From positions 496,001-560,000 of the forward strand of contig NZ_CP046244.1 of NCBI RefSeq assembly GCF_009735625.1: a DNA stretch of 64,000 nt. The letters are read 5' to 3'. Shown here piece by piece: positions 24,403-64,000 of this stretch (position 1 is its first letter; each line of letters begins with the position of its first letter). The stretch is from Moorella glycerini. GTDB taxonomy: Bacteria; Bacillota; DSM-521; Neomoorellales; Neomoorellaceae. The notes under the pieces are model-generated. The model was not told the DNA's origin. It worked only from the letters and a program-made list of their open reading frames with translations, and made no database searches. The position numbers were made by a program, and so were the translations under genes.

Positions 24403-25290
24403 CTATTCGACATCCGTCTCTATTTTCCTGCCGGTGGCCCGGGAAAAAGCTGCGGTCAAAGCCCGGGTAACCAGGACAGCCGTCATCTCTTTACGATAGG
24501 CGCTGGACCCCCGCAGGAGACTGTCCCGGGGCCGGGCTGCTGCTTTCGCTGCCGCCGCGGCCCTGGCGATAGCGTCCGCGCCAGGCTTCTGGCCAATAAG
24601 GACCCTGGCCGCTTCCTCACACAGGAAGGGTTGCGGCGCCACCGGGGCGATACAGATGCGCGCCCGGGTGCACCTCCCCTCTACCACCTGGACCCGCACG
24701 GCAGCATTGAGCAGGGGCAGGGAAAGGGCCCGCCGGGGCGACAGGCGGGCAAAGGCCGACCCTTCACCTTCTCCCCACAGGTCAACGGTAAAGCGGGTTA
24801 ATATCTCGCGGCCGGCGTCTACCCTGGAGCGACCGACGCCTTCGTAAAGGTCTTCGACCGGTACCTGGCGTTCACCTTCCGGCCCCAGGATGGTGGCCAC
24901 TGCTCCCAGAGCCACCAGGGCTACGGCTGTGTCGGCTGCCGGCTGGGCGTTAACCACATTGCCCCCCAGGGTACCGGCATTGCGTACCTGGGGTGAACCG
25001 ACGGCGGCGGCCGCTGCTGCCAGGGCCGGCAGCTTTTCCCGGATGACTCCTGACGTTGAGACCTGGGTGTGGGTTACGGCCCCGCCCAGGATTATCTTAC
25101 CGTTTTCTTCCGCAATTATCTTTAGTCCGGGAATGCGGGTAATATCGACCAGGGTATGAATTTGCCGTTTTTCTTCTTTGAGGTCGATTACCAGGTCGGT
25201 ACCGCCGGCGATAAGGCGCGCCCCCGGGTGGGCGGCCAGCATGGCCAGGCACTCGGCCGGTGAGGTGGCAAAGAGGTATTGCCGGGGCAT
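24403..25290 (-). CDS. Molybdenum hydroxylase FAD subunit (YgfM type)
   Basis: 295 residues of the CO-dehydrogenase/xanthine-dehydrogenase medium-subunit family, which accepts electrons from the iron-sulfur subunit. FAD-binding motifs are ARLIAGGTDLVIDL (about residue 32) and GSPQVRNAGTLGGNVVNAQPAADT (about 100-123). ATG 25290 is chosen because AAGGAGGGATAAC lies before it; a longer frame to 25530 has only low-complexity Arg/Pro sequence. It follows ssnA as ygfM does in E. coli, so its natural partner may be the fused XdhD at 33501-36341. Last gene of a long operon that an IS now interrupts. Confidence 0.92.
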   Translation of the reverse strand: MPRQYLFATSPAECLAMLAAHPGARLIAGGTDLVIDLKEEKRQIHTLVDITRIPGLKIIAEENGKIILGGAVTHTQVSTSGVIREKLPALAAAAAAVGSPQVRNAGTLGGNVVNAQPAADTAVALVALGAVATILGPEGERQVPVEDLYEGVGRSRVDAGREILTRFTVDLWGEGEGSAFARLSPRRALSLPLLNAAVRVQVVEGRCTRARICIAPVAPQPFLCEEAARVLIGQKPGADAIARAAAAAKAAARPRDSLLRGSSAYRKEMTAVLVTRALTAAFSRATGRKIETDVE

Positions 25291-25372
25291 GTTATCCCTC
25301 CTTAAGGACGACAGATAGTTTGGGGTGGGGTATGTCCCGGAGCCGCGATTAGCGGAACGCCGGTGATCTTTT

Positions 25373-26698
25373 CTAAAATCGCTCCCATACTTTAGCGGCC
25401 AGCTCCCGGGCCCTGGCGGCAATGGCCGCCTCGTCCAGGTGCAAGAGCCGCCGCTCCCGCATGAGAACTTTACCGCCAATAATGGTCGTGTCCACCAGGC
25501 TGCCGTTAAAGCCAAAGAGCAGGTGGCCAAACCAGTTGGCCGCCGTCAGGGGGGTCGGCGCGTGGTAATTCACCAGGATGACATCGGCGTAGGCGCCGGG
25601 CTCTAAGCGGCCCAGGGGATGGGGGAAGAACCGGGCCAGGATGCGGCGGTTATTCTCAAACACCATGGCCGGCACTTCACTCCAGCCGGCGTTAGGGTCG
25701 CCGGAAACGAGCTTGCGCAAAACACTGGCTGTTTTGAGGGATTCAAACATATCGCTGGTATAGCCGTCGGTCCCCAGGCCAACCGTCACGCCGGCGGCCA
25801 GCATGTCGCCTACCGGGGCGCAGCCGACGGCATTGCCCATGTTGGATTCCGGGTTATGGACCACCAGGGTGCCGGTTTCCTTCAGGATAGCTATTTCCCT
25901 TTCAGTTACATGGACGCAGTGGGCGGCGATGGTCTCTGGTCCCAGGATGCCGTGGTCATACAAACGCTCCACCACCCGCTTACCCTCGCGTTCCAGGGCA
26001 TCTTCTACGTCCTGGATGCCTTCGGCCACGTGGATGTGGAAGCCGCTGCCCACCTCGGCCGCTGCCTCCCGGCAGGCGGCCAGGGTGGCGTCGGAAAGGG
26101 TGAAGGAGGCGTGGAGGCCGAAGGTGGCAGTAACTAGCTCTTCCTGGCCGTGGTATTTTTTAATGGCTGCCATATTCTCTTCAATTCCTTCCCGCATAAT
26201 GGCCTCACCGTCGCGGTCGGAAACCTCGTAGGCCAGGCAGGTGCGGACGCCGGTTTCCCGGGCCGCCCGGGCGATCATCTCCAGGCTGCCGCGGACGGCG
26301 CGAGGGCTGGCATGGTGGTCAAGGATGGTGGTGGTACCGCTCTTGATACAGTCGACCAGAGGGATCAGGGCGCTGTAATAGACATCCTCCAGGGTCAGGG
26401 CCTTGTCCAGGCGCCACCACAGCCGCTGCAGGATCTCCAGGAAATTGGTCGGCGGCGCGTCCTTCAGGGCCATGCCCCGGGCGAAGGTGCTGTACAGGTG
26501 CATGTGGGTATTGGTCATGCCGGGCATAATCACCATACCCCGGGCATCCAGCCATTCCGCCTCCGGGTAGCGTTGCTGCAATTCAGCCGTTGGGCCAACG
26601 GCAACTATCCGGTCACCTTCAATAGCCACCGCACCTTCTTCCTGATAGGGATTATCCGGGACTAGAGTTAACAGGCGGCCGTTACCAATAAGGAGCAT
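25373..26698 (-). CDS. ssnA: SsnA-type aminohydrolase
   Basis: 441 residues of the amidohydrolase superfamily. Metal ligands are in MPGMTNTHMHLYS (about residues 59-71), a later His in GFHIHVAEG and IAAHCVHV, and the Asp in GLGTDGYTSD. The sequence ARGMALKDAPPTNFLEILQRLWWRLD is characteristic of SsnA. It probably deaminates a purine such as guanine or an oxidised derivative. ATG 26698 has GGAGGTG upstream. Before the IS insertion its start lay about 36 bases behind the iron-sulfur gene that now ends at 28434. Confidence 0.92.
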   Translation of the reverse strand: MLLIGNGRLLTLVPDNPYQEEGAVAIEGDRIVAVGPTAELQQRYPEAEWLDARGMVIMPGMTNTHMHLYSTFARGMALKDAPPTNFLEILQRLWWRLDKALTLEDVYYSALIPLVDCIKSGTTTILDHHASPRAVRGSLEMIARAARETGVRTCLAYEVSDRDGEAIMREGIEENMAAIKKYHGQEELVTATFGLHASFTLSDATLAACREAAAEVGSGFHIHVAEGIQDVEDALEREGKRVVERLYDHGILGPETIAAHCVHVTEREIAILKETGTLVVHNPESNMGNAVGCAPVGDMLAAGVTVGLGTDGYTSDMFESLKTASVLRKLVSGDPNAGWSEVPAMVFENNRRILARFFPHPLGRLEPGAYADVILVNYHAPTPLTAANWFGHLLFGFNGSLVDTTIIGGKVLMRERRLLHLDEAAIAARARELAAKVWERF

Positions 26699-26731: not shown

Positions 26732-28426
26732 CCTGAATCCGTGATAATAACAACTGGGTAGAACTCGCACTAACAGTAAATGGTATTAACAGTTATATTT
26801 AACATCTGCTGATACATTGAATTGGGTCTAAAGTTGATTATGTGGACGAAGGCTATTTACTCTTACCTTGGGTCCCCTGGATAAGGGAATAACAAAGTAG
26901 ACCTCTCGTCCTAAGAGGCTTGGAGCCTGCTTATACAGCTAACTGGAGCTAGAAGTTCTGTATTAAGCCAACGCTTTATATAGGTACCGGAAAGCTGGAT
27001 ACCACGGGCTGTGCTGCCCAAATCGTAATTTGACCTGCCGGGCGTGGTGAACCAGCCGGGACGCTATGGTAATCAGGTTTTGTATAACGGTACGCAGCCG
27101 CCGGCGTTGAGCTTTCTTATTGCGCAGCGGTACCTCCTTTAGCGGGAGGCTAAACTGCCCCAGAAGCCTTAGAATGTTGTAGGCGAAAACACCCAGGTGT
27201 AGCACCAGGTCATTGGTGGCAAACTTGCCGCTGGGCAGCCGTTCCAGGTCTAAATCGTTTTTGATTTCACTGTGGAATTGCTCACTGGTGCCGTGGTCGT
27301 GGTAGAGGGTAATGATATCCTCCACCGGGTCGGGTAAAGTGGTCCAGTAGGTTTCGACCTCAATTTCCGGGACCAGGAGAAGCTGGCCGTTTCGTAATAT
27401 CGTCCGCTCGGTGACCTTATACACCAGACGGACAGGGGTGTCAGCACCCTCGATTTTCACCATCTGGTGCCCCCGATAGACGGTTTTTCCCTCCCGTTCT
27501 AGGGTGGCGGTACCATTTTCCTTGGCAATGGCCAGCCAGGCCTCCGGCGTTTCCTTGCGCAGGTTACGCTTAATGATAAAATCGGCTTTGATTTCCGGGT
27601 CCAAACAGACCTGGAGATTATCCTGGCTGTCATTACCGCCATCCATCCGTACTAAAAGTGGCAGCGAAGTGATAGCGCGAGCAAAGGTTAGAGCTTGTCG
27701 CAGGAACTCCGGCGTCCCTTTTTGGCAATGCTGTTTCCCGGCCCGCAGTTCGGTATGGACGCAGTAGCCTTCCCTACCGAGGTAGGCGAAGATAGGCGCA
27801 TAACCGTCGTAGCCCTTATAGGTCCTGGAAACACCCTCTTTCTTGGAATTTGAATTATCAAAGGGAGTAACATCAATATCCAAAGGGACATATTGGCGCT
27901 TTAGTTCCCTGGAACCCAGGGTAACAGGAGTTACCGGTGCCTTAAGTTTCTTAAGGAACCTGGCCGTTTCCTCGAGGATAATCTCCTGGTAGGGTACACT
28001 ATGAGCTATCATATCCAGGCGCTGGCGCAGGGTAGGGCTTGAAGGCACATCCTGAATACCCAGCGCCGCAGCGAAGAAGGGGTCATCCCGAAAAAGCTCA
28101 ATATGGTCAAAATCACTGCGACCCTGGCAAAGCAGGCCCACGTAAGAGGTGATAACATCCCCGTGAGAAATATCCGGAGAAGAAACACCAGGTATCCGGG
28201 TCTTATTTAGCCTGAGTTTCAGAGCAGTATGATCAATGATTTCCCCCACCAGAGCCAGTCCGGCAACGGGGGTAAGGTGTTCATCAGACTGTTCAATGAT
28301 GAATTTCATGGCCGCACCTCGCAGGTGAACATGGATTCGTTTGCCATCCAGCCTATTATACCTTATTTTTCGCGAGGTTTTGAGCCATATCCAGATATTT
28401 TGTTATTGGGTTGTCACGGATTCAGG
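26732..28426 (-). mobile_element. IS1380-family insertion sequence
   Basis: 1695 bp. Terminal inverted repeats begin CCTGAATCCGTGA at both ends. The flanking bases are TACTTA on both sides (26726-26731 and 28427-28432), a target duplication. It carries one transposase gene. It sits two bases behind the stop codon of the iron-sulfur subunit gene and 33 bases before ssnA, splitting one operon. Confidence 0.92.
26963..28309 (-). CDS. IS1380-type transposase
   Basis: 448 residues, the usual length. DDE catalytic context is visible: YVPLDIDVTPFDNSNSKKEGV, LLVRMDGGNDSQDN and, near the C-terminus, HDHGTSEQFHSEIKNDLDLERLPSGKF with the catalytic Glu. The segment ATNDLVLHLGVFAYNILR is typical of the family. 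The reading frame is intact, so the element may be active. ATG 28307-28309 follows a GAGGTGCG ribosome-binding site. Confidence 0.93.
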   Translation of the reverse strand: MKFIIEQSDEHLTPVAGLALVGEIIDHTALKLRLNKTRIPGVSSPDISHGDVITSYVGLLCQGRSDFDHIELFRDDPFFAAALGIQDVPSSPTLRQRLDMIAHSVPYQEIILEETARFLKKLKAPVTPVTLGSRELKRQYVPLDIDVTPFDNSNSKKEGVSRTYKGYDGYAPIFAYLGREGYCVHTELRAGKQHCQKGTPEFLRQALTFARAITSLPLLVRMDGGNDSQDNLQVCLDPEIKADFIIKRNLRKETPEAWLAIAKENGTATLEREGKTVYRGHQMVKIEGADTPVRLVYKVTERTILRNGQLLLVPEIEVETYWTTLPDPVEDIITLYHDHGTSEQFHSEIKNDLDLERLPSGKFATNDLVLHLGVFAYNILRLLGQFSLPLKEVPLRNKKAQRRRLRTVIQNLITIASRLVHHARQVKLRFGQHSPWYPAFRYLYKALA

Positions 28427-28433
28427 TACTTAA

Positions 28434-28904
28434 CTAATCTGCCAGCGCTTTTTCTACAGCTTTAATGATGTTCTGGTAACCGGTGCAGCGGCATAAATGA
28501 CCGGACAATTCTCTTTTAATTTCTTCCCGCGTATATTTTTTACCGCTTTCTACCATGGCCGTTGCCGTAAGGACATAACCGGGCGTGCAGAAACCGCACT
28601 GGATGGCCCCCTCTTCAATAAAGGCTTTTTGTACCTTGGAAAGCTCCCCGTTTTTAGCTATTCCTTCTATCGTGACGATATTTTTGCCCTCGGCCCAAAC
28701 AGCCAGGTAAATACACGAATCAACCGGCATGCCGTCGATGAGAACCGTGCAGGCGCCGCATTCACCAACGCCACACCCTTTTTTAACCCCGGTATATCCT
28801 AAACGGTTGCGCAAGACTTCAAGCAACGATTCGCCAATGTCTACTTCCAGAGTTGCCTGTATCCCATTTACTGTCAAGGAAATTTTTTTAAGCAATTTCC
28901 GCAC
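28434..28904 (-). CDS. Molybdenum hydroxylase iron-sulfur subunit (second copy in operon)
   Basis: About 156 residues with two [2Fe-2S] clusters: the plant-ferredoxin type (GCGVGECGACTVLIDG) and the helical type (IQCGFCTPGYVL ... HLCRCTGYQ). It moves electrons from the molybdenum subunit to FAD. The start is uncertain: GTG 28904 or TTG 28895 fit the family length and follow GGCGGGGGG; a longer frame to 28955 adds an atypical extension. It overlaps the FAD gene. An IS1380 element now lies two bases behind its stop. Confidence 0.9.
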   Translation of the reverse strand: MRKLLKKISLTVNGIQATLEVDIGESLLEVLRNRLGYTGVKKGCGVGECGACTVLIDGMPVDSCIYLAVWAEGKNIVTIEGIAKNGELSKVQKAFIEEGAIQCGFCTPGYVLTATAMVESGKKYTREEIKRELSGHLCRCTGYQNIIKAVEKALAD

Positions 28905-29772
28905 CCCCCGCCTTGACAATAGCCGCTTGCAGCGCCCTCCGGGTGAGTTCTTCAACTAAGTGCTCCCTGTATTCTTTGGAAGCACGCCAGGAGGTCCTTG
29001 CCCTCGTCGATTTAACGGCTAATTTCCCAATTGCCGCTATGGTTTCCCGGGAGATTACTTTGCCTTTGGCAAACACTTCTGCTTCGCGACATCTTAAAGG
29101 AGTTGGACCGGCCACCCCCAGTCCAATCCTGACATCGGCAAAAATATTTCCTTCCTTTATTTTACAAATCACTGCCACACCTAAAGTAGCGATATCCATT
29201 GCCTTGCGCATGGAAAATTTTATATAGTGTCCACCATAGCCCTGATAATCCTCAGGGGTAACTATTATTTCTGTAAGGATTTCCCCGGGCTTTAAATCAA
29301 CCTTGCCAGGGCCCAGGTAGAATTCCTGGATGGGAACAACCCGCTCACCTTGATTGCTCTGTAATTTTAACCTGGCATCAAGGGCCAGCAAGGTGGAAGC
29401 ACTGTCGGCAGACGTGGCCCCGTTGCAAATATTGCCGCCGATAGTAGCCACGTTGCGGATCTGCGGTCCCCCCATGGACAGGGCGGCTTCTGCTAGAACA
29501 GGAATATTGTCTTTGATAACAGGATCATTGACAACTTGAGTGAAAGTAGTTAACGGCCCGATTACGATCGTACCATCTTCAAGTTTACGAATACCTTGCA
29601 AGGATTTTATTTTGCGGATGCTGAGTAACGCTGCTTTTTCAATCTGGCCATGATGCAGTTTAATCAAAACATCCGTACCGCCCGCAATGATGGTCAGGTT
29701 AGGATTAGCCGCCAGCAGCGCGGTGGCTTCATTTACTGTTGCCGCCTCAAAATATCCTTGAATGTTGTACAC
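28888..29772 (-). CDS. Molybdenum hydroxylase FAD subunit
   Basis: 294 residues. FAD motifs are LTIIAGGTDVLIKLHHG (about residue 28) and GGPQIRNVATIGGNICNGATSADS (about 100-123). In the operon it lies between the molybdenum subunit and the second iron-sulfur subunit, 17 bases after the former. Compared with 24403-25290 and 54295-55173 its codon use is visibly more AT-rich, as is that of its two neighbours. Confidence 0.93.
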   Translation of the reverse strand: MYNIQGYFEAATVNEATALLAANPNLTIIAGGTDVLIKLHHGQIEKAALLSIRKIKSLQGIRKLEDGTIVIGPLTTFTQVVNDPVIKDNIPVLAEAALSMGGPQIRNVATIGGNICNGATSADSASTLLALDARLKLQSNQGERVVPIQEFYLGPGKVDLKPGEILTEIIVTPEDYQGYGGHYIKFSMRKAMDIATLGVAVICKIKEGNIFADVRIGLGVAGPTPLRCREAEVFAKGKVISRETIAAIGKLAVKSTRARTSWRASKEYREHLVEELTRRALQAAIVKAGGAEIA

Positions 29773-29789
29773 CCATCCTCACCACCTTC

Positions 29790-32081
29790 CTATATTAAGC
29801 CGGCTTCCTTGAACTTTTCAAAGACCCGCTGGGGGTTCATGGGTAGCCTGTTAAAGGCCACGCCAGTCGCGTCTAAAACGGCATTGCGAATCGCCGGTGC
29901 CACGGGAATAGTCGGCGGCTCTCCTAAAGCCTTGCAACCAAAGGGGCTGGTGGGTTCAAAGGTTTCGACAAAAGCCACACCAATATCCGGGATATCCATT
30001 ATCGTCGGCATTTTATAGTCCAGCAAATTATTATTCAGGGGTTTGCCGGTTTTTTCGTCAAACAGCATCTGTTCTGCCAGCGCATAGCCAATGCCCATGC
30101 CTACGCCGCCATGCACCTGTCCTGCTGCTAATTGGGGGTTGATAATTTTACCTGAATCATGCACATTATATATTTCCAGGACCTCGATTTTACCAGTCTT
30201 AATGTCTACTTCCACTTCGGCAAAAGTAACACCAAAAACAAAGGCATTGATCCTGGCATTGTTGGACGTATCGCTCGTTATCGGCCTGGCAAAAACGGTA
30301 TCATAATAAGTGTACAAGGCCACTTCGGCAAGGGGCATGACAACTTCTCCTGAGTGTTTATAAATAATGTTTTGTTCCTTAATATCTAAGGCGTGGGCGG
30401 GTATATCGGTCATACCCCAGACAAAATCCAGGATTTTTTCTTTAACTTCTAATGCTGCTTTAGCCACCGCCATACCGGTAATATAAGTCTGCCTGGAAGC
30501 ATAGGCACCGGTGTCAAAAGGTGTAATATCGGTATCCTGGGTGGAAATGACATGCACCATATCCACGGGTATACCCAGGACTTCCGCCACCATCTGGGCA
30601 AAGACAGTATCGCTTCCTTGCCCTATTTCGGTGGCACCAATTTGCAATTGGACAGAGCCGTCCTGGTTTAAAACAATTCTGGCTCCCGCTATTTCCAGTC
30701 CTACCGGATGGGTACCGGAGGCGTAGCTGAAGCAGGCCATGCCTAATCCTCTGCGTTTCGTACCTGCTTGATTCTTATACCGCGCTTTTTTCTCATCCCA
30801 TTTGATTAATTCTTTACCCTTTTCAATGCACTCACGTATGCCGCAGCTCCTTACCGTGTTGCCATTCAAAGGATCTACATAGCCTTCATGAACGAGATTT
30901 TTCATGCGGAATTCAAGAGGATCGATATTAAGCTTCCTGGCAATATTTTCTAAATGGCTTTCCACGGCAAAAGTTATCTGGGGTGAACCATAACCCCGCA
31001 TGGCTCCGGCAACGGGCAGGTTAGTATATACAGTTAATGGTTCGTATTTTAAGGCCTGCATGGGGTATAGAACCCTGAATTTGGAGCCCCCCGCCATTGC
31101 AATAGAATGTCCGTGGGAAGCATAGGCCCCGGTGTTGGCAATAGCCGCAATATGCATGCCAATTAGTTTCCCGTCTTTGGCAACACCTGTTTTAATTTTA
31201 TATTTAATGGCATGACGGGTGCGCGTATCGATCATGCACTCTTCCCGAGACAATTCCAGTCTTACCGGCCTGCCGCCCACGGCCAGGGTCATTACGGCAG
31301 TTAAAGGTTCCAGGCAAACATCCTGCTTGCTGCCAAAGCCGCCGCCGACGCATGGTTTAATTACCCGTACCCTTCCCCAGGGGATACCCAGAGCCTGGCC
31401 GACGATCCTCCTGACAATATGAGGAATCTGCGTGGAAGTCACGATCACGATGCGGCCGTCGCTGTCTACATAGGCATAAGATACATGGTTTTCTAACTGG
31501 CAGTGCTGGACAATACTTGTTTCCAGTTCATCCTCAAAAATATAGTCAGCTTCCTGGAAAGCCGTTTCAACAGAGCCGATTTCATAGCCAGCAGAACTCA
31601 AGATGTTCCGTGGACAATCCTCATGGATTAAAGGCGCGCCTTCCCGCATGGCAGCCTCCGGGGTAAGCAGCGGCTCCAGTACTTCATAATCTACCTCAAT
31701 TAATTTCAGGGCTGCGGCGGCTGTCAACTCATTTGTAGCCACCACTGCTGCAATAGCATCCCCCACAAAGCGGGCTTTGCTGGTTAAAATAGTCCGATCT
31801 TCTTTATCCCTGTGCTTCGGGTCCAGGGCATAGGGGTGCCCTGCTGTGGCAAATTTGATTTTCGGCACGTCTGCATAAGTCAAAACCGCTTCTACACCTG
31901 GCAGAGCCCTGGCTTTGCTAACATCGATGTTTTTAACTATGGCGTGAGCATAAGGACTTCTCAATATTTTGCCGACCAGCATGTCTCTTGCAATAAAATC
32001 GCCGGTATATTTCGCTTTCCCGGTTACTTTGGCCACCGCATCAACCCTGTTTATACTTTTCCCAACTGCTGTATAAGCCAT
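29790..32081 (-). CDS. Xanthine-dehydrogenase-type molybdenum-binding subunit
   Basis: 763 residues, the usual length of a separate large subunit. It hydroxylates purine or other N-heterocycle carbon at the molybdopterin-cytosine or molybdopterin centre. Visible motifs are VGGGFGSKQD, GAMRGYGSPQ, LQIGATEIGQGSDT and the C-terminal GEPPTIPVAPA with the catalytic Glu. ATG 32081 follows the preceding iron-sulfur gene at once. The sequence is more AT-rich than the flanking hydroxylase genes. The substrate cannot be told; the riboswitch upstream argues for a purine. Confidence 0.93.
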   Translation of the reverse strand: MAYTAVGKSINRVDAVAKVTGKAKYTGDFIARDMLVGKILRSPYAHAIVKNIDVSKARALPGVEAVLTYADVPKIKFATAGHPYALDPKHRDKEDRTILTSKARFVGDAIAAVVATNELTAAAALKLIEVDYEVLEPLLTPEAAMREGAPLIHEDCPRNILSSAGYEIGSVETAFQEADYIFEDELETSIVQHCQLENHVSYAYVDSDGRIVIVTSTQIPHIVRRIVGQALGIPWGRVRVIKPCVGGGFGSKQDVCLEPLTAVMTLAVGGRPVRLELSREECMIDTRTRHAIKYKIKTGVAKDGKLIGMHIAAIANTGAYASHGHSIAMAGGSKFRVLYPMQALKYEPLTVYTNLPVAGAMRGYGSPQITFAVESHLENIARKLNIDPLEFRMKNLVHEGYVDPLNGNTVRSCGIRECIEKGKELIKWDEKKARYKNQAGTKRRGLGMACFSYASGTHPVGLEIAGARIVLNQDGSVQLQIGATEIGQGSDTVFAQMVAEVLGIPVDMVHVISTQDTDITPFDTGAYASRQTYITGMAVAKAALEVKEKILDFVWGMTDIPAHALDIKEQNIIYKHSGEVVMPLAEVALYTYYDTVFARPITSDTSNNARINAFVFGVTFAEVEVDIKTGKIEVLEIYNVHDSGKIINPQLAAGQVHGGVGMGIGYALAEQMLFDEKTGKPLNNNLLDYKMPTIMDIPDIGVAFVETFEPTSPFGCKALGEPPTIPVAPAIRNAVLDATGVAFNRLPMNPQRVFEKFKEAGLI

Positions 32082-32082
32082 T

Positions 32083-32565
32083 TTACCCCCTCCCTTCCCC
32101 CGCTATCATTACTGCCGCCTTTTCTACGGCGGTGATAATTTTAGCATAGCCGGTGCAGCGGCATAAATTGCCCGACAGGGCGACCTTAATTTCCTCCCGG
32201 GTGGGACGGGGGTTCTGGTCCAGCAGGGCTTTGGCGCTCATAATCATCCCCGGGGTACAGAAGCCGCACTGGACGGCCCCCTCGCTGATAAAGGCCTCCT
32301 GTAAAGGATGGAGCTGGCCGCCAGGCGGGGCCAGGCCTTCAATGGTAAGCACCTCCGACCCTTCCGCCTTAGCAGCAGGAACCAGGCAGGAGTTAACCGC
32401 CTGGCCGTCCAGGATCACCGTGCAGGCACCGCATTCCCCTTTGCCGCATCCCTCCTTGGTACCGGTGAGGCCTAAGTTTTCCCGCAGCAGTTCCAGCAAG
32501 GTAATGTCTGCCGGGGCCTCGACCTGGTACTCCTGGCCGTTGACTTTAAGTTTAAACCTGGGCAT
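32083..32565 (-). CDS. Molybdenum hydroxylase iron-sulfur subunit (first copy in operon)
   Basis: 160 residues with both [2Fe-2S] motifs (GCGKGECGACTVILDG and VQCGFCTPGMIM ... NLCRCTGYA). It is the first gene behind the purine riboswitch at 32633-32697. Its GC-rich codon use agrees with 53820-54302 but not with the molybdenum, FAD and second iron-sulfur genes directly downstream, which hints that the operon was assembled from two sources. Confidence 0.94.
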   Translation of the reverse strand: MPRFKLKVNGQEYQVEAPADITLLELLRENLGLTGTKEGCGKGECGACTVILDGQAVNSCLVPAAKAEGSEVLTIEGLAPPGGQLHPLQEAFISEGAVQCGFCTPGMIMSAKALLDQNPRPTREEIKVALSGNLCRCTGYAKIITAVEKAAVMIAGEGRG

Positions 32566-32806: not shown

Positions 32807-33478
32807 TTAAATCTCATGGTCGCGGATGGGACCCGTTTCCCCGAGGCCGAGCTCCGCTTTCTTCGCCGCCCAGGCTTCCCGTCCCAGGGCCGTTACCATA
32901 GTTGCTTCGGCCACGGCCCGGCCCAGGCCCCGGACAGTGCCCATACCCACTTCATCCTCAGCCGCCCCCCTGGCCAGGCCGTCCCGGGTCCAGACCTTGC
33001 CGCCGGAATAGCAGCCGCCGGTACCGCCGCAGACCAGCATCTCGTGCATGAGGAAGAAGTTAATAAGGGAAATAAGGGCCGTTTCCTGGCCGCCGTGGCG
33101 GGTTCCACCTAAAGTAATGGCGCCGGCAGCCTTATTGCGCAGGGCCCCCGGGTGGACCAGGAAAATGGGCCGCAGGCGGTTAAAGCAAGTGGCCAGCTGG
33201 GCGGTAATATTCATGTCGTAGACAGGAGAACCGACAATAAAACCGTCGGCCGCGAGGACCAGCTGCTCCAGTTCCTTGACGTCGTCTTCTTTGCAGCACA
33301 TGCGCTTTTCCCGGATGCACCGGTCGCAGTGGGTACAGAACTGGATTTTTTTCGCCCTTACCGTCCAGAAGCGGGTTTCAATCCCGGGAATTTCCGCTGC
33401 CGCCTTGAGGGCTTCCTGGACGGCATATTCCGTCGCCCCTTTGCGGGGGCTGCCGCTGATGCCTAAGATTACCGGCAT
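32807..33478 (-). CDS. Iron-sulfur flavoprotein (Isf type)
   Basis: About 223 residues. A flavodoxin-like FMN fold opens with VILGISGSPRKGATEYA, the phosphate loop. Cysteines CTHCDRCIREKRMC follow the pattern CX2CX2CX6C that holds a [4Fe-4S] cluster in archaeal/clostridial Isf proteins. ATG 33478 has AGGAG eight bases upstream; GTG 33487 is less likely. It directly follows the fused hydroxylase gene 33501-36341, which has no FAD subunit next to it. A paralogue stands in the same position at 60662-61354. It is a candidate electron acceptor of the hydroxylase. Confidence 0.88.
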   Translation of the reverse strand: MPVILGISGSPRKGATEYAVQEALKAAAEIPGIETRFWTVRAKKIQFCTHCDRCIREKRMCCKEDDVKELEQLVLAADGFIVGSPVYDMNITAQLATCFNRLRPIFLVHPGALRNKAAGAITLGGTRHGGQETALISLINFFLMHEMLVCGGTGGCYSGGKVWTRDGLARGAAEDEVGMGTVRGLGRAVAEATMVTALGREAWAAKKAELGLGETGPIRDHEI

Positions 33479-33500
33479 GATAATCACTCCTATCTTTTGC

Positions 33501-36341
33501 TCACTTCCCTAGAGCTGCCAGGATCTTTTCGGGCGTTACCGGCAGGTCGTTAAAATCCATCCCCAGGGCGTCGGCGACGGCGTTGACCACCGCCGGCGCC
33601 ACGGCCACCGTGGCCGCTTCGCCGATACTTTTAGCCCCAAAGGGGCCGTGCTCTTCGCCCTTTTCAACCAGGATGACTTCTATCTCCGGCATAGCGGCGG
33701 CCTTGAAAAGGCGGTATTTTTTCAGGGACGGGTTGAGGACCTTGCCGCTGGCCGGATCGACCTTTAATTCTTCACTCAAAGCATAACCCAGGCCCATCTG
33801 GATACCCCCTTCAATCTGGCCTTCAACCATGAGGGGATTGATGGCCCGGCCGATATCATGGGCGGCCACCAGTTGCAATACCTTGACGGCACCTGTTTCC
33901 GTATCGACCTCTACCTCGGCAAAGACGACGGCATAGGAACCAGGGCCAAAGACGGAGTGATAGCTTTCATAGGCTTTGATTTCCCGCTGGTCCGGCCCCT
34001 GCTGGGCGGCAATGACAATCTCTCCCAGGCTCACCCGTTTTGCCGGGTTGCCCCTGCTAAAGACGTAACCGCCGTCCAGGTCCAGTTCCTCTACCCGTTC
34101 GCTTAAGAGACGCGCCCCTTCCTCCAGCAGCTGCTGGCGCACCTTTTCCGCGGCCTTTTTGGCTGCATTGCCGCCGACCCAGGTTACCCGGCTGGCGTAG
34201 GTACCGACATCCCAGGAAGTAAGCTCGGTGTCGGCTTCCACCACTTCAATCTGGTCAGGCCTGATACCCAGGACTTCAGCTACGATCAGACTCAGCATGG
34301 TGTTGCTGCCCTGGCCGATGTCCTGGTTGCCGGTAAAGAGGGTACAGCTCCCGTCTTCATTCATTTTCAGGGCGATGGTGGTCAGGTCTACATGGACGCC
34401 GAAGACGCCGGTACCGTGGTTGCCGGCAGCCACACCGATGCCGCGGCGGTAACGCCCTGTTCCTTGGGGCCGCGCCTTTTTCCCTGCCCAGTCAAAGCGG
34501 GCCGCTCCCTCTTCCAGGCAGTCCAGGGGCCGGCAGTTGCCCAGGGTCTTGTTGAAGCGGGGGTTAATGTCCCCCGGCCGTACCAGATTCTGGCGACGAA
34601 AGTCAACGGGATCGCTTCCCAGGGCCCGGGCAATGCGGTCCAGGTGAATCTCCCGCGCCGCCATGAGCTGGGGCGACCCGTAACCGCGCATGGCCCCGCC
34701 GATGGGGTTATTGGTATAGACGGGTAAAGAGGTAATCCGCAAATTGGGAATGCGGTACAGTTTAAAGGCTTTGTCGTTCATGGCTGAGGGGACGTTGAGG
34801 GCGCTGGTGGCGTAGGCACCTTTATCCATCACCACCCTGATATCCTGGGCAACGATGGTGCCGTCCTTTTTAACACCCGTTTTGAGATAAAAAACGGCGG
34901 CATAACGGGTACGGGTGGAAACCATCACTTCCCGCCGGCTGAGTTCCATACGGACCGGCCGGCCGGTCTTCATGGCCAGCAGGGCCGCTACCGGTTCCAG
35001 GACGGCTTCCAGCTTGCCGCCAAAGGCGCCTCCTACAGGGGGCTTGATGACCCTTACTTTGTTGAGGGGCAAGCCCAGGACCTCGGCCAGGATCAGCCGG
35101 GTGGCAAAAATATTCTGGTTGGCCGACCAGACGGTTAGCTTGCCGTTACTGTAATCGGCCAGGCAGGCATGGAGTTCCAGGGCGGCATGGGTTACCCGCG
35201 GCGTGGTAATCCTGTCGGTAAAAATAAAGTCGGCGGCAGCCATGGCCTGCTCCACATCCCCGGCCTCGGCCTTGATGGTAGCCACCAGGTTGCCGCCGGG
35301 GTGGACGGCCGGGGCTCCGGGCTGCAGAGCCTCCTCGGGGTCAAAGACGGCCGGCAGTTCTTCGTACTCCACCTTAATCAGCTTTAACGCCCTGGCGGCC
35401 GTCTCTTCATCGTCGGCCGCCACGGCTGCTACCCGATCGCCGACAAAGCGTACGGTGTCGTCGAAGATGTATTCATCGCGGGGGATATTATGGCCGGCAA
35501 AGCGCAGGGCGCTGTTGTAGGCCACTCGGGGCGAGTTCTGGTAGGTTACTACGGCCCGGACACCGGGCAGGGCCGCGGCCGCGCTGGTATCGATACTTTT
35601 AATCCGGGCATGGGGTACCGGGCTAAAGAGGATTTTACCATGGAGCATGTGGGGCAGTTCCATGTCGCCGACATAGGCCAGGCGGCCGGTGGCTTTGGCC
35701 ACGGCATCCTTGAGGGGCGCAGGTTTGCCCACCTGTCGTAAGCCGGCAGGGGCGCCATGTGGCGGCTCAGGCGGGCCCGCCTGTTGCTGACCGGCCGGGG
35801 CACCGGCCGGCCCCGGGTGCTGCCCCGCCACCTGCCCGTCCTTTGCCCCTTCCGGCAACCACGACGGCAAGTTTTCTCCCCTTAACCGGGCGGCAGCCAG
35901 CTGGATGGCCCGGACAATTTTTACGTAACCGGTACAACGGCAGAGGTTGTTGTCCAGGGCGGCACGGATTTCCGCCTCACCGGGGTTAGGGTTACGGTCC
36001 AGCAGGGCTTTAGCCGTGATAATCATCCCCGGCGTGCAGAAGCCGCACTGGATGGCCCCGGTATCAACAAAGGCCTGCTGGATGGGGTGCAGCTTATCCC
36101 CCTGGCTCAAGCCCTCGATGGTTGTAATCTTTTTACTGGCGGCATTACGGGCCAGGATGGTACAGGAGTTGACGGCCGCGCCATCCACCAGCACCTTGCA
36201 GGCGCCGCAGTCGCCGGTGGCGCAGCCGCACTTGGTCCCTTTCAGCTTTAAAACATCCCTGATGACCTTGAGCAGGGTCCAGTTGGGCTCAATTACCATT
36301 TTATAGGAAATGCCGTTTACTTCCAGGGTAATATTAAGCAC
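33501..36341 (-). CDS. xdhD: Fused iron-sulfur/molybdenum hydroxylase (XdhD type)
   Basis: 946 residues. Residues 1-160 form an iron-sulfur subunit (CGCATGDCGACKVLVDG, QCGFCTPGMII, NLCRCTGYV). A Pro/Gly/Ala/Gln-rich linker of about 45 residues (about 165-210) follows, then a complete molybdenum subunit (PPVGGAFGGK, GAMRGYGSPQ, GNQDIGQGSN, catalytic Glu in SIGEAATVAVAPA). E. coli XdhD, a putative purine hydroxylase of nearly equal length, has the same fusion. No FAD domain is present; possible partners are YgfM (24403-25290) or the flavoprotein downstream. A SigH-type promoter lies upstream. Confidence 0.92.
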   Translation of the reverse strand: MLNITLEVNGISYKMVIEPNWTLLKVIRDVLKLKGTKCGCATGDCGACKVLVDGAAVNSCTILARNAASKKITTIEGLSQGDKLHPIQQAFVDTGAIQCGFCTPGMIITAKALLDRNPNPGEAEIRAALDNNLCRCTGYVKIVRAIQLAAARLRGENLPSWLPEGAKDGQVAGQHPGPAGAPAGQQQAGPPEPPHGAPAGLRQVGKPAPLKDAVAKATGRLAYVGDMELPHMLHGKILFSPVPHARIKSIDTSAAAALPGVRAVVTYQNSPRVAYNSALRFAGHNIPRDEYIFDDTVRFVGDRVAAVAADDEETAARALKLIKVEYEELPAVFDPEEALQPGAPAVHPGGNLVATIKAEAGDVEQAMAAADFIFTDRITTPRVTHAALELHACLADYSNGKLTVWSANQNIFATRLILAEVLGLPLNKVRVIKPPVGGAFGGKLEAVLEPVAALLAMKTGRPVRMELSRREVMVSTRTRYAAVFYLKTGVKKDGTIVAQDIRVVMDKGAYATSALNVPSAMNDKAFKLYRIPNLRITSLPVYTNNPIGGAMRGYGSPQLMAAREIHLDRIARALGSDPVDFRRQNLVRPGDINPRFNKTLGNCRPLDCLEEGAARFDWAGKKARPQGTGRYRRGIGVAAGNHGTGVFGVHVDLTTIALKMNEDGSCTLFTGNQDIGQGSNTMLSLIVAEVLGIRPDQIEVVEADTELTSWDVGTYASRVTWVGGNAAKKAAEKVRQQLLEEGARLLSERVEELDLDGGYVFSRGNPAKRVSLGEIVIAAQQGPDQREIKAYESYHSVFGPGSYAVVFAEVEVDTETGAVKVLQLVAAHDIGRAINPLMVEGQIEGGIQMGLGYALSEELKVDPASGKVLNPSLKKYRLFKAAAMPEIEVILVEKGEEHGPFGAKSIGEAATVAVAPAVVNAVADALGMDFNDLPVTPEKILAALGK

Positions 36342-53819: not shown

Positions 53820-54302
53820 CTACTCTCGCCCGGCCATGTGGGTGGCCGCGTCCTCGATAGCAGCTACAATCTGCTCATAGCCGGTACAGCGGCATAAATT
53901 GCCGGCAATGGCGGCCCGGATTGCGGCCCTGGTGGGATGGGGGTTTTTATCCAGCAGGGCCTTGGCGCTCATGATCATCCCCGGGGTGCAGAAACCGCAC
54001 TGGAGGGCATTATGCTTGATAAAAGCCTCCTGCAGGGGGTGGAGGCGCCCGTCCTGCTCCAGACCTTCGATGGTGATAATCTCCTTCCCTTCCGCTGCTG
54101 CCGCCAGAACCAGGCAGGAATTGACCGCCTGGCCGTCCATAATGACGGTACAGGCGCCGCACTCGCCAATGCCGCAACCCTCTTTCGTACCCGTGAGCAT
54201 TAATTCATCCCGCAGGACATCCAAGAGGCGGGCATTGGGAGCAACCCTGACGGTATAATCGCGGCCGTTGACCTTGAGCTGGAGGCTGATTTTTTCACTC
54301 AT
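53820..54302 (-). CDS. Molybdenum hydroxylase iron-sulfur subunit
   Basis: 160 residues; [2Fe-2S] motifs GCGIGECGACTVIMDG and LQCGFCTPGMIM ... NLCRCTGYE. It overlaps the FAD-subunit gene by eight bases, which implies coupled translation and a 1:1 complex with the two preceding subunits. Order here is molybdenum, FAD, iron-sulfur. Confidence 0.94.
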   Translation of the reverse strand: MSEKISLQLKVNGRDYTVRVAPNARLLDVLRDELMLTGTKEGCGIGECGACTVIMDGQAVNSCLVLAAAAEGKEIITIEGLEQDGRLHPLQEAFIKHNALQCGFCTPGMIMSAKALLDKNPHPTRAAIRAAIAGNLCRCTGYEQIVAAIEDAATHMAGRE

Positions 54303-59584: not shown

Positions 59585-60628
59585 TTACAGCTTATTGACA
59601 TCAATCTTCTTTTCAATCAAGTCTTTTTGGACCTGTTCTGCTTTTTGCACCGCCTCCGGGTTCAATTTACTCTTCAACTTCTCATTCCAGATGATACCGG
59701 TAGCTCCCTCTTTGGTAGCCACGACATACCCCCTGGCTTCAAATTTACCATCCAGAATCTCTTTCACGATATACTTGATAGCTACACTATAATCATACTT
59801 GGAACTGGCCGGAACATTATCCGGGGCTACATTGCTTTGATCGCCGGCAAAGCCGACGGCATAGACATTCTTGCTCTTGGCAGCCTCAATAACCCCCAGG
59901 CCGGCCTGGTTGGCATCCCCCAGAACAACATCGGCTCCCTGCTGGATGAAGGCCAGGGCTGTTTCTTTCGCCTTGGCTACGTCATCCCAACTGCCAATTA
60001 ACGTCCCCAGAGCTTCAACCTTGGGATTAACCATTTTCGCCCCGGCTTTAAACCCGGCTTCGGCATCGGTAATGGGCGGCATATTGACGCCACCGATAAA
60101 GGCCACCTTGTTGCTTTTAGTAAGCAAACCTGCAAGAATCCCGCCAATGAACCCGGCCTCTTTGTTGGAGACCTCCAGGGAAGCAACATTGGGTCCTTGC
60201 GCTATGTTCGAGCTGGTGACGATGAATTTAACCTTGGGGAAGTCTTTACCTACTTTTTTAGCCACATCGTTAAATTGGAACCCATGGCCGATGATGACAT
60301 CATAACCCTGGTTGGCATAGGCCCGGAAAGCTTCTTCCATATCTGACTGGGTTACATTTTCCCGGTAGGCGCCTTCAATCCCCAGCTCGGCCTGGGCCTT
60401 TTTTAGCCCTTCATAGGCTACCGAATTCCAGCCATTATCATTAATTGGTCCCGGTAAAACCAGGGCCACTTTCAGCTTTTTGGCAGCCGCACCCGTATTT
60501 TGTTGCGCCTGTCCCTGGGGCTGTCCTTTATCTTCCGGCTTTGCTTGCTTGCTGCCGCCACACCCGGCTAAAAACACGCCTCCAATTAGCGCCAGCGTTA
60601 ATAATATCGCCCCTATCCTCTTGCGCAT
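59585..60628 (-). CDS. BMP-family substrate-binding lipoprotein
   Basis: 347 residues. Signal peptide and lipobox (ALIGGVFLAGCGG), Lys/Gln-rich linker, BMP domain with KVALVLPGPINDNGWNSVAYEGLKKA. ATG 60628 follows AAAGGAGGAAGGTAAG; a longer frame to 60652 runs through that site. Closely similar to 51321-52385. It is the last gene behind a molybdenum hydroxylase and an iron-sulfur flavoprotein, so uptake and oxidation of the same substrate are probably co-expressed. Confidence 0.93.
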   Translation of the reverse strand: MRKRIGAILLTLALIGGVFLAGCGGSKQAKPEDKGQPQGQAQQNTGAAAKKLKVALVLPGPINDNGWNSVAYEGLKKAQAELGIEGAYRENVTQSDMEEAFRAYANQGYDVIIGHGFQFNDVAKKVGKDFPKVKFIVTSSNIAQGPNVASLEVSNKEAGFIGGILAGLLTKSNKVAFIGGVNMPPITDAEAGFKAGAKMVNPKVEALGTLIGSWDDVAKAKETALAFIQQGADVVLGDANQAGLGVIEAAKSKNVYAVGFAGDQSNVAPDNVPASSKYDYSVAIKYIVKEILDGKFEARGYVVATKEGATGIIWNEKLKSKLNPEAVQKAEQVQKDLIEKKIDVNKL

Positions 60629-60661
60629 CTTACCTTCCTCCTTTGACGTCAAAAATTAAGA

Positions 60662-61354
60662 TTACTCTTCTTCCGTAAGATCCTTGTAATGATCTTTAAA
60701 CCACAGCGTTTCGCGCTTAAGATCAATTCCCTGGGATTGTAAAGCTTCCTTCCCTGCTTTCAATATCAGCGCTGCCTCGGCTACCCGGCGCCCCAACCCG
60801 CGTACCTTTTCCATCCCTATCTCATCTTCAATGGCCCCCTCCTCCTTCCGATCTTTGGTCCAGACGCAGGCACCGCAATAATTGCCCCCGGGTCCCCCGG
60901 TAACTAAAATTTCATAGGTTAAGAAGAAATTTTTGATAGTCAACAAGGCCATTTCCTGGCCGCCATGGCGGGTGCCCCCGGTAGCGATGGCCCCCCCAAC
61001 GCGGTTGGCAAAATGGCCGGGATAAACCAGGTAGGTTGGCCGCAGCCGGCTGCAGAAATCCTGCAACAGGGGAGTAGAATTCATCTGGTAAACCGGCGTT
61101 CCCAGGATATAGCCGTCGGCGGCTAAAAATTTCTCCTGGACTTCCTGGAAATCGTCCTTGATCTGGCATAACTGGCTGGTCTTGATACACTTGTTGCAAT
61201 GGATGCAGTGGCCGATTTTTTTTCCCCTGAGGGAGACAAATTCAGTAGTAACTCCCGGCACGGTAGCCGCAGCTTTTAAAGCTTCCTGGACGCAGTATTC
61301 CGTAGCCCCCTTACGATGACTCCCGCTGATACCCAAAATTTTTACACTTACCAA
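60662..61354 (-). CDS. Iron-sulfur flavoprotein (Isf type), second copy
   Basis: 230 residues; FMN loop KILGISGSHRKGATEYC and the [4Fe-4S] motif CIHCNKCIKTSQLC (CX2CX2CX6C). Closely related to 32807-33478. The start is TTG 61354, with GAGGGGG eight bases upstream; no ATG is available. Like its paralogue it directly follows a molybdenum hydroxylase that lacks an adjacent FAD subunit, which supports a role as electron acceptor. Confidence 0.88.
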   Translation of the reverse strand: MVSVKILGISGSHRKGATEYCVQEALKAAATVPGVTTEFVSLRGKKIGHCIHCNKCIKTSQLCQIKDDFQEVQEKFLAADGYILGTPVYQMNSTPLLQDFCSRLRPTYLVYPGHFANRVGGAIATGGTRHGGQEMALLTIKNFFLTYEILVTGGPGGNYCGACVWTKDRKEEGAIEDEIGMEKVRGLGRRVAEAALILKAGKEALQSQGIDLKRETLWFKDHYKDLTEEE

Positions 61355-61376: not shown

Positions 61377-63686
61377 TTAATTTTTGATGGCGCAATCAGG
61401 CCGGAGAAGTGCCCGCCAGACGCGCTCCGGCGTCAGGGGTAGTTCCGTAAAGTGCACTCCCGTAGCCTGAAAAACGGCACTGGCAACCGCCGGCGCCACA
61501 GGGGCCACGGCATTTTCCCCTACCCCCCTGGCACCAAAGGGTCCTGTAGGTTCTCCTGCTTCCACGACAATTGTTTCCATTTCCGGCACGTCAACTGCCG
61601 TGGGCAGCATATATTTATGGTAGCTATCCTGGAGCTGCCGGCCTTGCGGATCATAAGTTATTTCTTCACCCAGGGTGTAGCCAAGACCCATAACGGCACC
61701 GCCCTGGATCTGGCCCCGGACAATCTCCGGATTAATCGCCTTGCCCATATCATGGGCGGCGACCAGGCGGATAACTTTAATGGACCCGGTGGCCGTGTCT
61801 ACTTCGACTTCAGCAAAGTGGGCATGCCAGGAAAGGGCGTTCTGGGAAGCATTCTGACCGATAGTGGCCAACTGCCGGTTGTGAAAATCGGCATCGGCCG
61901 CCAGTTCTTTTAAAGTGATCTGCTTCCCCGGATCATCCCTGGACAAGATGGTGGCCTTTTGCCAGATCAGCTTTTCTTTGGGTATTTGCCATTTTTCGCT
62001 GGCATAAGTTAAAATCTGCTCTTTTAAATCCCGGGCCGCCTGCAAAGTGGCCATGCCGGCGGCGTAGCAACTGCGGCTGGCCTGGCTACCCACATCATAG
62101 GGTACCATTTCCGTATCCCCAAGGGACACAGCTATATCTTCCACCTCAACTTCCAGCACTTCCGCGGCGATCTGGGCCAGGGTAGTTTTGGTGCCTGTCC
62201 CCATCTCGACGACACCGCTGGCCAGCTGGATTGTCCCGTCGGGCTGGAGGGAGAGATAGACATTGGAATAATCGGTTTGGAAGGGAAAAGCGCTGCTGAT
62301 ATGGTTGCCAACAGCCACACCCAAACCCCGCTTATAGCGTCCTGAGCCGGCATGGCCTGCTGCCAGTTCCCGGCGCTTCTCCCAGCCGATTTTTTCCGCC
62401 CCTTTGATTAAACATTCTCGCAGGCCACTGCTCAGGCAAGGAAAAGGAGCAACCCAGGTATCCCCGGGGGTAATGATATTTTTTAACCGCAATTCCAGGG
62501 GGTCTATTCCTAAAATGGCAGCCGCTTTGGCAACCGTCATTTCCACGGCAAAGGTAGGCTGGGGAGCACCAAAGCCCCGGCAGGCTCCGGCAGGTGTAGT
62601 ATTGGTATAAACGCTATAACCCTCGAAGCGGGAGTGGGGCACCCGGTAAATAGTCAGGCCCCGCGAACCAATAGCCCCGGGCACATCAGCACTCCAGCTA
62701 CAATAGGCGCCGCCATTCATAATGGCCTGCATGTAGAGGGCCTGGAAAATGCCATCCTTACTTAACCCCAATTTCACCGTAATATAACCGGCATGCCTGG
62801 TATCCGAAGCAATGAAATCCTCCTGGCGATCATAGACTACCTTCACCGGCCGGCCGGTAGCCAGGGCCAGGGCGGCAGCAATGGGCTCTGCCTTGGCGCT
62901 CAAGCCAATCCTGACCCCGAAGCCCCCCCCAACATAGGGCGGGTTTAATACCCGCACTTTACTCAAGGGCAATTTAAAAATCTCGGCCACAATTCGCCGC
63001 GTCGGGTGGGGGGTTTGGGTCGGCGACCAGATGGTTAACTTGCCATCGCCGGTTAAAGCAGCCACGGCCGCCTGGGTTTCTAATTGACCCTGTTTTTGCA
63101 CCGGTAATTTATAAGTCGCCTCCACAACAATTTCCGCAGCAGCCAGGCCGGTGGCGATGTCGCCCAGCCCGAATTGCAGGATATCACCAGCTATATTCTT
63201 TTTGGTGCAATGGGGGTGAAGCAGCGGTGCTTCAGGTTTTAAAGCCTCCAGGGGATCATATACTGCCGGTAAAATTTCGTATTCTACCTCAATCAGGTCC
63301 AGGGCGGCCCGGGCTATCTCCTCGCTCACGGCAGCCACCGCCGCCACTTCATCACCCACGTAACGGACGACATCATCAAAAAGATATTGATCTTTAACTG
63401 CTGCCAAGGGAGGAATAGTATAGGTTGAAGTTGCCGCAGCGTTAAATGGCACCCGGGGAGTATTGCGATAAGTTAAAACTGCTTTCACCCCGGGCAAGGC
63501 TTCAGCCTTGCTGGTATCAATCTTAATGATGCGGGCATGGGGATGAGGGCTGCGTAAAACTTTAGCGTATAACATGCCGGGTAAAGTTATATCCGTTGTA
63601 TAAGTGGCTTTGCCCGTAACTTTTTCTAAAGCATCCAGGCGGGAAATGCCCCGGCCTACGATCTGGTATTTAGCAGCAGCCTTCAT
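61377..63686 (-). CDS. Xanthine-dehydrogenase-type molybdenum-binding subunit
   Basis: 769 residues. Motifs: PPYVGGGFGVRIG, GACRGFGAPQ, LASGVVEMGTGTKT and the catalytic Glu in GVGENAVAPVAPA. ATG 63686 is chosen because AGGAGGGATTAAAA precedes it; a frame to 63734 would overlap the previous gene more. It overlaps the iron-sulfur gene by 17 bases. No FAD subunit follows; the next genes are an iron-sulfur flavoprotein and a BMP lipoprotein. Confidence 0.93.
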   Translation of the reverse strand: MKAAAKYQIVGRGISRLDALEKVTGKATYTTDITLPGMLYAKVLRSPHPHARIIKIDTSKAEALPGVKAVLTYRNTPRVPFNAAATSTYTIPPLAAVKDQYLFDDVVRYVGDEVAAVAAVSEEIARAALDLIEVEYEILPAVYDPLEALKPEAPLLHPHCTKKNIAGDILQFGLGDIATGLAAAEIVVEATYKLPVQKQGQLETQAAVAALTGDGKLTIWSPTQTPHPTRRIVAEIFKLPLSKVRVLNPPYVGGGFGVRIGLSAKAEPIAAALALATGRPVKVVYDRQEDFIASDTRHAGYITVKLGLSKDGIFQALYMQAIMNGGAYCSWSADVPGAIGSRGLTIYRVPHSRFEGYSVYTNTTPAGACRGFGAPQPTFAVEMTVAKAAAILGIDPLELRLKNIITPGDTWVAPFPCLSSGLRECLIKGAEKIGWEKRRELAAGHAGSGRYKRGLGVAVGNHISSAFPFQTDYSNVYLSLQPDGTIQLASGVVEMGTGTKTTLAQIAAEVLEVEVEDIAVSLGDTEMVPYDVGSQASRSCYAAGMATLQAARDLKEQILTYASEKWQIPKEKLIWQKATILSRDDPGKQITLKELAADADFHNRQLATIGQNASQNALSWHAHFAEVEVDTATGSIKVIRLVAAHDMGKAINPEIVRGQIQGGAVMGLGYTLGEEITYDPQGRQLQDSYHKYMLPTAVDVPEMETIVVEAGEPTGPFGARGVGENAVAPVAPAVASAVFQATGVHFTELPLTPERVWRALLRPDCAIKN

Positions 63687-64000
63687 TTTTAATCCCTCCT
63701 GTCCCCCGGGCAGCCTGCATAATAGCTTCTTCAATCTTCACGTAGCCGGTACAGCGGCAAATATTGCCGCTGATGGCTTCCTTTATTTCATCCCTGGTAG
63801 GCCTGGGGTTATGGTCCAGCAGGGCTTTAGCGGCCATGATCATACCGGGAGTACAAAAGCCGCATTGGACGGCGCCTGCCTTGATAAAAGCCTGCTGGAG
63901 AGGATGCAATTGTTCTCCCCTGGCCAGCCCTTCAATAGTTTCCACCCGCCTGCCCCGCACCTTTACGGCCGGCAATAAACAAGAATTTACCGCCTGGCCA
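63670..64000 (-). CDS. Molybdenum hydroxylase iron-sulfur subunit (partial)
   Basis: The C-terminal 109 codons; the N-terminus with the first [2Fe-2S] cluster lies beyond the right edge. The frame is open to the edge (GQAVNSCLLPAVKV...), and the second cluster motif is present (VQCGFCTPGMIM ... NICRCTGYV). It belongs to the complex with 61377-63686. Confidence 0.93.
   Translation of the reverse strand, partial: GQAVNSCLLPAVKVRGRRVETIEGLARGEQLHPLQQAFIKAGAVQCGFCTPGMIMAAKALLDHNPRPTRDEIKEAISGNICRCTGYVKIEEAIMQAARGTGGIKNEGCC

Follow-up and report, generated by a model that had tools for sequence, protein, structure and literature searches.

A window of 64,000 nucleotides from Moorella glycerini (G000:C1:496001-560000, in a genome of 3.56 Mb and two contigs) carries a molybdenum hydroxylase gene that has no flavin adenine dinucleotide (FAD) subunit gene beside it and is directly followed by a gene for an iron-sulfur flavoprotein (Isf), referred to here as Isf 1. 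They form the first of two hydroxylase-Isf units in the window (Table 1). The clade to which Isf 1 belongs tracks one clade of FAD-less hydroxylases across genomes and phyla. This association supports a functional link between Isf 1 and the hydroxylase; it stops short of proving that Isf docks in the place of FAD or that ferredoxin is the partner. Isf 1 could well be a dedicated small electron carrier for the hydroxylase, facultative and clade-specific, in anaerobic degraders of purine-like N-heterocycles, and we rate the chances of this as even.

The FAD-less hydroxylase clade and its Isf neighbours

The hydroxylase has an intact open reading frame with the Pfam domains Fer2, Fer2_2, Ald_Xan_dh_C, MoCoBD_1 and MoCoBD_2, and keeps 8/8 iron-sulfur (FeS) cysteines and the glutamate motif GAKSIGEAA. 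The Fer2/Fer2_2 and MoCoBD domains, the cluster cysteines and the catalytic Glu motif place it in the xanthine oxidase family. No FAD gene adjoins it in the locus neighbourhood. Its best PDB sequence match is the molybdenum (Mo) part of 4-hydroxybenzoyl-CoA reductase (1rm6), followed by the Desulfovibrio gigas aldehyde oxidoreductase (1sij). Orthology to the Escherichia coli urate reductase XdhD was considered and rejected, as the score against TIGR03313 is 451.5 bits (cut-off 1101.9) and E. coli XdhD lies outside the clade; for the latter reason the designation xdhD, used below for convenience, is a loose name.

A tree of 78 Mo-subunit sequences, taken from the window and from loci found either with Isf or with the hydroxylase, places the protein in a clade of 43 rows (SH-aLRT 100). 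The clade stayed intact (support 100) when E. coli and ssnA-neighbour sequences were added, with E. coli XdhD outside. Where a FAD gene is counted as a hydroxylase's own if at most one FeS gene lies in between, 2/43 clade members have one, versus 27/35 sequences outside; the first unit and 41/43 of the clade are thus without it, as in the D. gigas type. FAD-lessness is thus a trait of long standing in these hydroxylases and is not tied to Isf.

Isf 1 starts about 20 bp after the hydroxylase on the same strand. It has 226 amino acids (aa), matches PF03358 (FMN_red, E 2e-25) and carries the cysteines C51-x2-C54-x2-C57-x6-C64, all four invariant in 30 aligned sequences. Isf proteins are defined by the compact cysteine motif CX2CX2CX5-7C (PMC3164229), and Isf 1 has both this motif and the FMN_red/flavodoxin-like fold. 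Its predicted cofactors are flavin mononucleotide (FMN) and one [4Fe-4S] cluster. The AlphaFold (AF2) model has a pLDDT (predicted local distance difference test) score of 91, with WrbA and flavodoxin as the closest PDB folds; the model of the hydroxylase, built from six sequences, is poor (pLDDT 68) and was set aside as a basis for any interface argument. The Isf of Methanosarcina thermophila is likewise a flavodoxin-like FMN protein with a compact CX2CX2C motif; it belongs to methanogen energy metabolism and has no known tie to molybdenum hydroxylases.

What can be made of a single gene pair? The genome encodes 14 FMN_red proteins, 13 with the Isf-type cysteine motif, so that one Isf neighbour means little alone and it is the phylogenetic tests that count. 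In a tree of 101 Isf sequences, Isf 1 falls in a clade of 17 rows (support 100/99). Members of the FAD-less hydroxylase clade lie within five genes in 12/17 of these rows versus 4/84 of the other Isf rows (Fisher 8e-9, for rows that are not independent); the 12 include L067, with an intergenic gap of 407 bp against a 400 bp rule, and the four include L124, assigned by hand. Hydroxylase and Isf are directly adjacent in eight genomes (G000, G008, G017, G018, L107, L108, L109, L111). In the last, a Treponema metagenome-assembled genome, the order is Mo-Isf-FeS-(FeS-Mo), with Isf between Mo and FeS genes, whereas the FAD-bearing set at 53820-57483 of the window reads Mo-FAD-FeS. What looked like a fusion of Isf and FeS in L111 was due to an open alternative frame, and the genes are separate.

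Three rows of the Isf clade (L101, L106, L110) have nearby a relative of another FAD-less gene, the orphan Mo subunit at 73893-76154 in window numbering (L009:14893-17154), which has neither an FeS nor a FAD gene beside it. Its relatives are likewise orphaned in G017, G018 and Paradesulfitobacterium.

Genome-level co-occurrence and competing explanations

The association was also examined at the level of whole genomes, by searching 398 genomes of the phylum with the hydroxylase, Isf, ssnA and, as a control, the hydroxylase of the 73893-76154 type. Isf proteins were assigned to the clade when at least 55% identical and above 280 bits, and hydroxylases when a match at E 1e-170 was placed in the clade by the tree. 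The Isf clade is found in 14 genomes and the hydroxylase clade in 24, with an overlap of 14/14 (0.84 expected, p 9e-20). Among the 86 ssnA-bearing genomes, Isf is present in 13/15 that have the hydroxylase clade and in 0/71 that do not, and in the window's own family four of the 11 ssnA genomes have both and seven have neither. The 14 Isf genomes belong to five families, so these p values overstate independence; the pattern recurs both between and within families. Chance adjacency arising from many Isf paralogues is ruled out by this test. Outside the 398-genome sample, the hydroxylase clade is present in the genomes of L105, L106 and L111, and the association spans Bacillota, Spirochaetota and Fusobacteriota. 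Hydroxylase-Isf neighbours like those of the first unit were thus found in other genomes, where the Isf 1 clade is tightly tied to the FAD-less clade.

One genome, G079, was not counted, its Isf match being borderline and truncated and its FeS and Mo frames broken; counted as Isf without the clade, it gives 1/71. The locus concerned (L274, G079:C1:60000-79000) is an FeS-Mo-ABC-amidohydrolase-Isf-ABC operon in short frames, which point to decay or assembly errors.

Several observations weigh against a dedicated carrier. Most members of the FAD-less clade have no neighbouring Isf, which speaks against an obligate replacement: among hydroxylase-found FAD-less loci of the clade outside the window's family, 4/27 have Isf in the operon and 23/27 do not (L231, L233 and L234 assigned by hand). 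Clade genomes without ssnA carry Isf in 1/9 cases, and the L110 genome has Isf and no clear clade member, with a 39% match at best. The Isf gene lies in a BMP/ATP-binding cassette (ABC) transporter operon, away from the hydroxylase, in G130, G095, G297 and L106. Relatives of the wider Isf subfamily stand beside FAD-bearing hydroxylases, tungsten aldehyde ferredoxin oxidoreductase (AFOR), UbiD and DHOD; complete FAD-bearing sets adjoin Isf in L275 and L277 (both Mo-FAD-FeS), L133 and L137. There is also a FAD gene in the window, downstream of ssnA, that has no assigned partner.

Could Isf then be a general redox protein of operons for N-heterocycle uptake and degradation, linked to the hydroxylase only indirectly as part of the same catabolic package? 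Among the neighbours of the Isf subfamily that were recognised, transporter genes are the most frequent, Isf of the same clade sits in BMP/ABC transporter operons in many genomes, in several of them with the hydroxylase elsewhere, and the varied enzymes beside its relatives fit such a role. We nevertheless hold this to be somewhat unlikely, as Isf co-occurs specifically with the FAD-less clade even among ssnA genomes, the other hydroxylase of the same clusters is no predictor (Isf in 12/38 genomes that have it), and direct adjacency is seen in eight genomes.

A reductase acting on the hydroxylase's substrate or product, like the FMN ene-reductase of gut bacteria, is an improbable alternative. 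The best PDB sequence match of Isf 1 is a chain labelled Cd1 (7d38, E 1e-7), which we take to be the flavone reductase FLR, and in L070 and L073 sister genes of Isf are flanked by ygeY on one side and a DHOD-type reductase on the other; the match itself is limited to residues 7-107. FLR, an FMN ene-reductase that has been compared with WrbA, binds its substrate via an extra C-terminal tail (PMC7862272), and Isf 1 has 226 aa against 310.

The XdhA set, ssnA and the second unit

On the minus strand, Isf 1 is followed by an FeS-XdhA-XdhB-XdhC set, an IS1380 element, SsnA and the further FAD gene. Does Isf 1 go with the hydroxylase before it or with the XdhA set after it? Only 241 bp separate it from the FeS-XdhA-XdhB genes downstream, which leaves ambiguous the statement of the initial annotation that the other two hydroxylase sets have a FAD subunit and no Isf. 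In the xdhD-less relatives L217, L239 and L246, no Isf is present at the FeS-XdhA-XdhB set, and in G017 and G018 the xdhD-Isf pair stays together, apart from XdhA. For these two reasons Isf 1 is assigned to the xdhD-like hydroxylase and not to the XdhA set.

Might the ssnA-linked FAD gene be a hidden subunit of the hydroxylase? This fourth FAD subunit of the window, absent from the earlier account, lies about 8 kb downstream of the xdhD-like gene on the same strand, in the same run and behind ssnA, where E. coli has ygfM. Were the true partner a FAD subunit from another locus, with this one the likeliest, Isf would have another role, for example in scavenging O2 or peroxide and so protecting metal centres that are sensitive to oxygen, and Isf proteins have indeed been proposed to reduce O2 and H2O2 (PMC3164229). 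We find this explanation very improbable. The ssnA-linked FAD gene is retained in L217, L239 and L246, where xdhD is absent, and is far from xdhD in G017 (L244), and most of the hydroxylase clade is without its own FAD gene. The gene is probably not a subunit of the xdhD-like hydroxylase, since relatives without xdhD keep it, and as a candidate for that role it was judged unlikely on this ground.

Two IS1380-family copies, at 26963-28309 and at about 70081-71427 past the window edge, are 99.8% identical over 1636 bp, and the first separates the xdhABC genes from ssnA; the near identity and this position indicate a recent insertion.

Table 1. Positions of the genes of the two units and their neighbours in window numbering
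Feature	Position	Strand	Basis or remark
Fused [2Fe-2S]2 and molybdenum cofactor (Moco) hydroxylase, FAD-less, 946 aa	33501..36341	-	Pfam, cofactor motifs, clade
Isf-type flavoprotein 1, FMN_red fold, CX2CX2CX6C	32807..33478	-	Reading frame open to 33487; Pfam, motif, AlphaFold
[2Fe-2S] subunit of the following XdhA set	32083..32565	-	Pfam; same place in L066, L217, L239, L246
XdhA, Mo subunit of xanthine dehydrogenase	29790..32081	-	NCBIfam NF007426 above cut-off
XdhB, FAD subunit of the XdhA set	28888..29772	-	NF007427 above cut-off
XdhC, second [2Fe-2S] subunit of the XdhA set	28434..28955	-	NF043084 above cut-off
SsnA amidohydrolase, purine/urate degradation marker	25373..26698	-	TIGR03314 above cut-off
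Further FAD subunit, ssnA-linked	24403..25530	-	Pfam and relatives' loci; present also in xdhD-less relatives
Isf-type flavoprotein 2, different Isf clade, beside FAD-bearing hydroxylase	60662..61354	-	Pfam, motif, tree
Mo subunit of second unit	61377..63734	-	Likely ATG at 63686; Pfam
[2Fe-2S] subunit of second unit	63670..64000 (to 64173 past edge)	-	Pfam
FAD subunit of second unit	64151-65038 (G000:C1:560151-561038)	-	Past right edge
BMP-type substrate-binding lipoprotein after Isf 2	59585..60652	-	BMP follows in L276 too

The initial annotation had described two hydroxylase units without a FAD gene, each directly followed by an Isf-type flavoprotein with FMN fold and CX2CX2CX6C. The latter is confirmed for both: Isf 2 has the same motif as Isf 1, and the two are 55% identical. 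As to the lack of a FAD gene, the statement stands for the first unit and falls for the second, where the gene lies beyond the right edge, within the same operon. A whole-genome search with PF00941 gave a match at C1:560529-561026, 529 bases beyond the edge. The second unit reads FAD-FeS-Mo-Isf, all on the minus strand, with overlapping FAD/FeS and FeS/Mo reading frames, and is a normal three-subunit hydroxylase with an Isf added. Its Isf belongs to a clade different from that of Isf 1, and the hydroxylases adjoining that clade bear FAD (EXT_198, L114, L119). The same gene order is seen in another bacterial family, f80 (L276, genome G203), followed by a helix-turn-helix (HTH) regulator, BMP and an amidohydrolase; the Mo subunits of L276 and of the second unit are sister rows in the Mo tree (support 99). 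BMP and HTH genes also follow Isf 2 in the window, in reversed order.

The second FAD-less example is thus an artefact of the window edge. The proposed mutual exclusion of Isf and FAD subunits is contradicted by the FAD gene just past the edge, which the initial annotation had itself named beforehand as counter-evidence, and by the FAD-FeS-Mo-Isf order of L276. As Isf adjoins FAD-bearing sets in the second unit and in L276, L275, L277, L133 and L137, it does not generally substitute for the FAD subunit, and 'Isf replaces FAD' is unfit as an annotation rule. What survives of that idea is narrower, support for a functional link between the Isf 1 clade and the FAD-less hydroxylase clade.

A possible electron route and its known parallels

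The analysis establishes the gene pair and its conservation, the absence of an own FAD gene from this hydroxylase clade and the co-occurrence in whole genomes; physical contact between Isf 1 and the hydroxylase, an electron route, its direction, a ferredoxin partner and a substrate are inferred. Electrons would move between the [2Fe-2S] cluster exposed on the hydroxylase and the FMN/[4Fe-4S] pair in Isf, and then from Isf to, or to Isf from, a cell-wide carrier, probably ferredoxin. Judging from what is known of the family, Isf could swap single electrons with ferredoxin through its predicted [4Fe-4S] cluster. In 4-hydroxybenzoyl-CoA reductase, an extra cluster sits in the hydroxylase complex, not in a separate flavodoxin-fold protein. 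The title of a reference listed in PMC10420851 attributes to this enzyme a reductive dehydroxylation, in which the electron flow is inverted, and a further [4Fe-4S] cluster.

The closest parallel is the D. gigas aldehyde oxidoreductase, which is also FAD-less, of similar length, and holds two [2Fe-2S] clusters and Moco in one chain. It feeds a flavodoxin, which has been modelled close to the FeS centre that is exposed, with FMN placed as FAD is in xanthine oxidase (PMC6274584). Isf could serve the present hydroxylase in the same way, although the D. gigas partner has no [4Fe-4S] cluster and the D. gigas enzyme works in the oxidative direction. An Isf in this role is plausible for the one clade and wrong as a general rule. 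A literature search of open-licence papers found no published pair of an Isf and a molybdenum hydroxylase.

The XdhD-YgfM urate reductase of E. coli resembles the first unit in having a fused FeS-Mo chain in an ssnA/ygfK-type purine cluster, but it comes with a FAD subunit and branches outside the clade. Urate is reduced by related enzymes from clusters of this type, and in Clostridioides difficile XdhD occurs without YgfM, with ferredoxin suggested as partner (PMC12507026). For XdhAC of Clostridium sporogenes, it is stated that neither the donor of electrons in the cell nor a possible accessory protein has been discovered (PMC12990295). An Isf clade whose distribution over genomes and phyla follows that of a single FAD-less hydroxylase clade offers a concrete and cheap candidate, a testable partner for the electron-donor question. 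More tentatively, and with less confidence than not, one may picture a multi-phylum clade that gave up the FAD subunit and uses a dedicated FMN/[4Fe-4S] Isf as an exchangeable electron module linking Mo chemistry on purine-like compounds to ferredoxin; FAD-less enzymes that reduce urate could likewise have their missing donor in such a partner. The window hydroxylase may act on a purine or N-heterocycle other than urate, since 71/86 ssnA genomes are without its clade and many of these have another Mo-FAD-FeS set beside ssnA.

Other settings of the Isf subfamily and of Mo subunits were encountered as well. Isf of the same subfamily lies directly beside or near AFOR in L105, L113, L136 and L148. 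In L064 and L069 it is found in operons with a dihydroneopterin-aldolase-like gene, an amidohydrolase and a BMP/ABC transporter, to which L064 adds a gene resembling methenyl-tetrahydromethanopterin (H4MPT) cyclohydrolase (PF02289); these operons look like pterin or folate breakdown. Many genomes of Lokiarchaeota and relatives (L145-L175) have one Isf each, whose surroundings are conserved and include small redox-like proteins but no hydroxylases. Elsewhere in the Moorella genome (L014, G000:C1:2989001-3005000), a Mo subunit is split between two genes (433 and 334 aa), as it is in nicotinate dehydrogenase (3hrd), and related genomes also contain Mo frames of this short kind.

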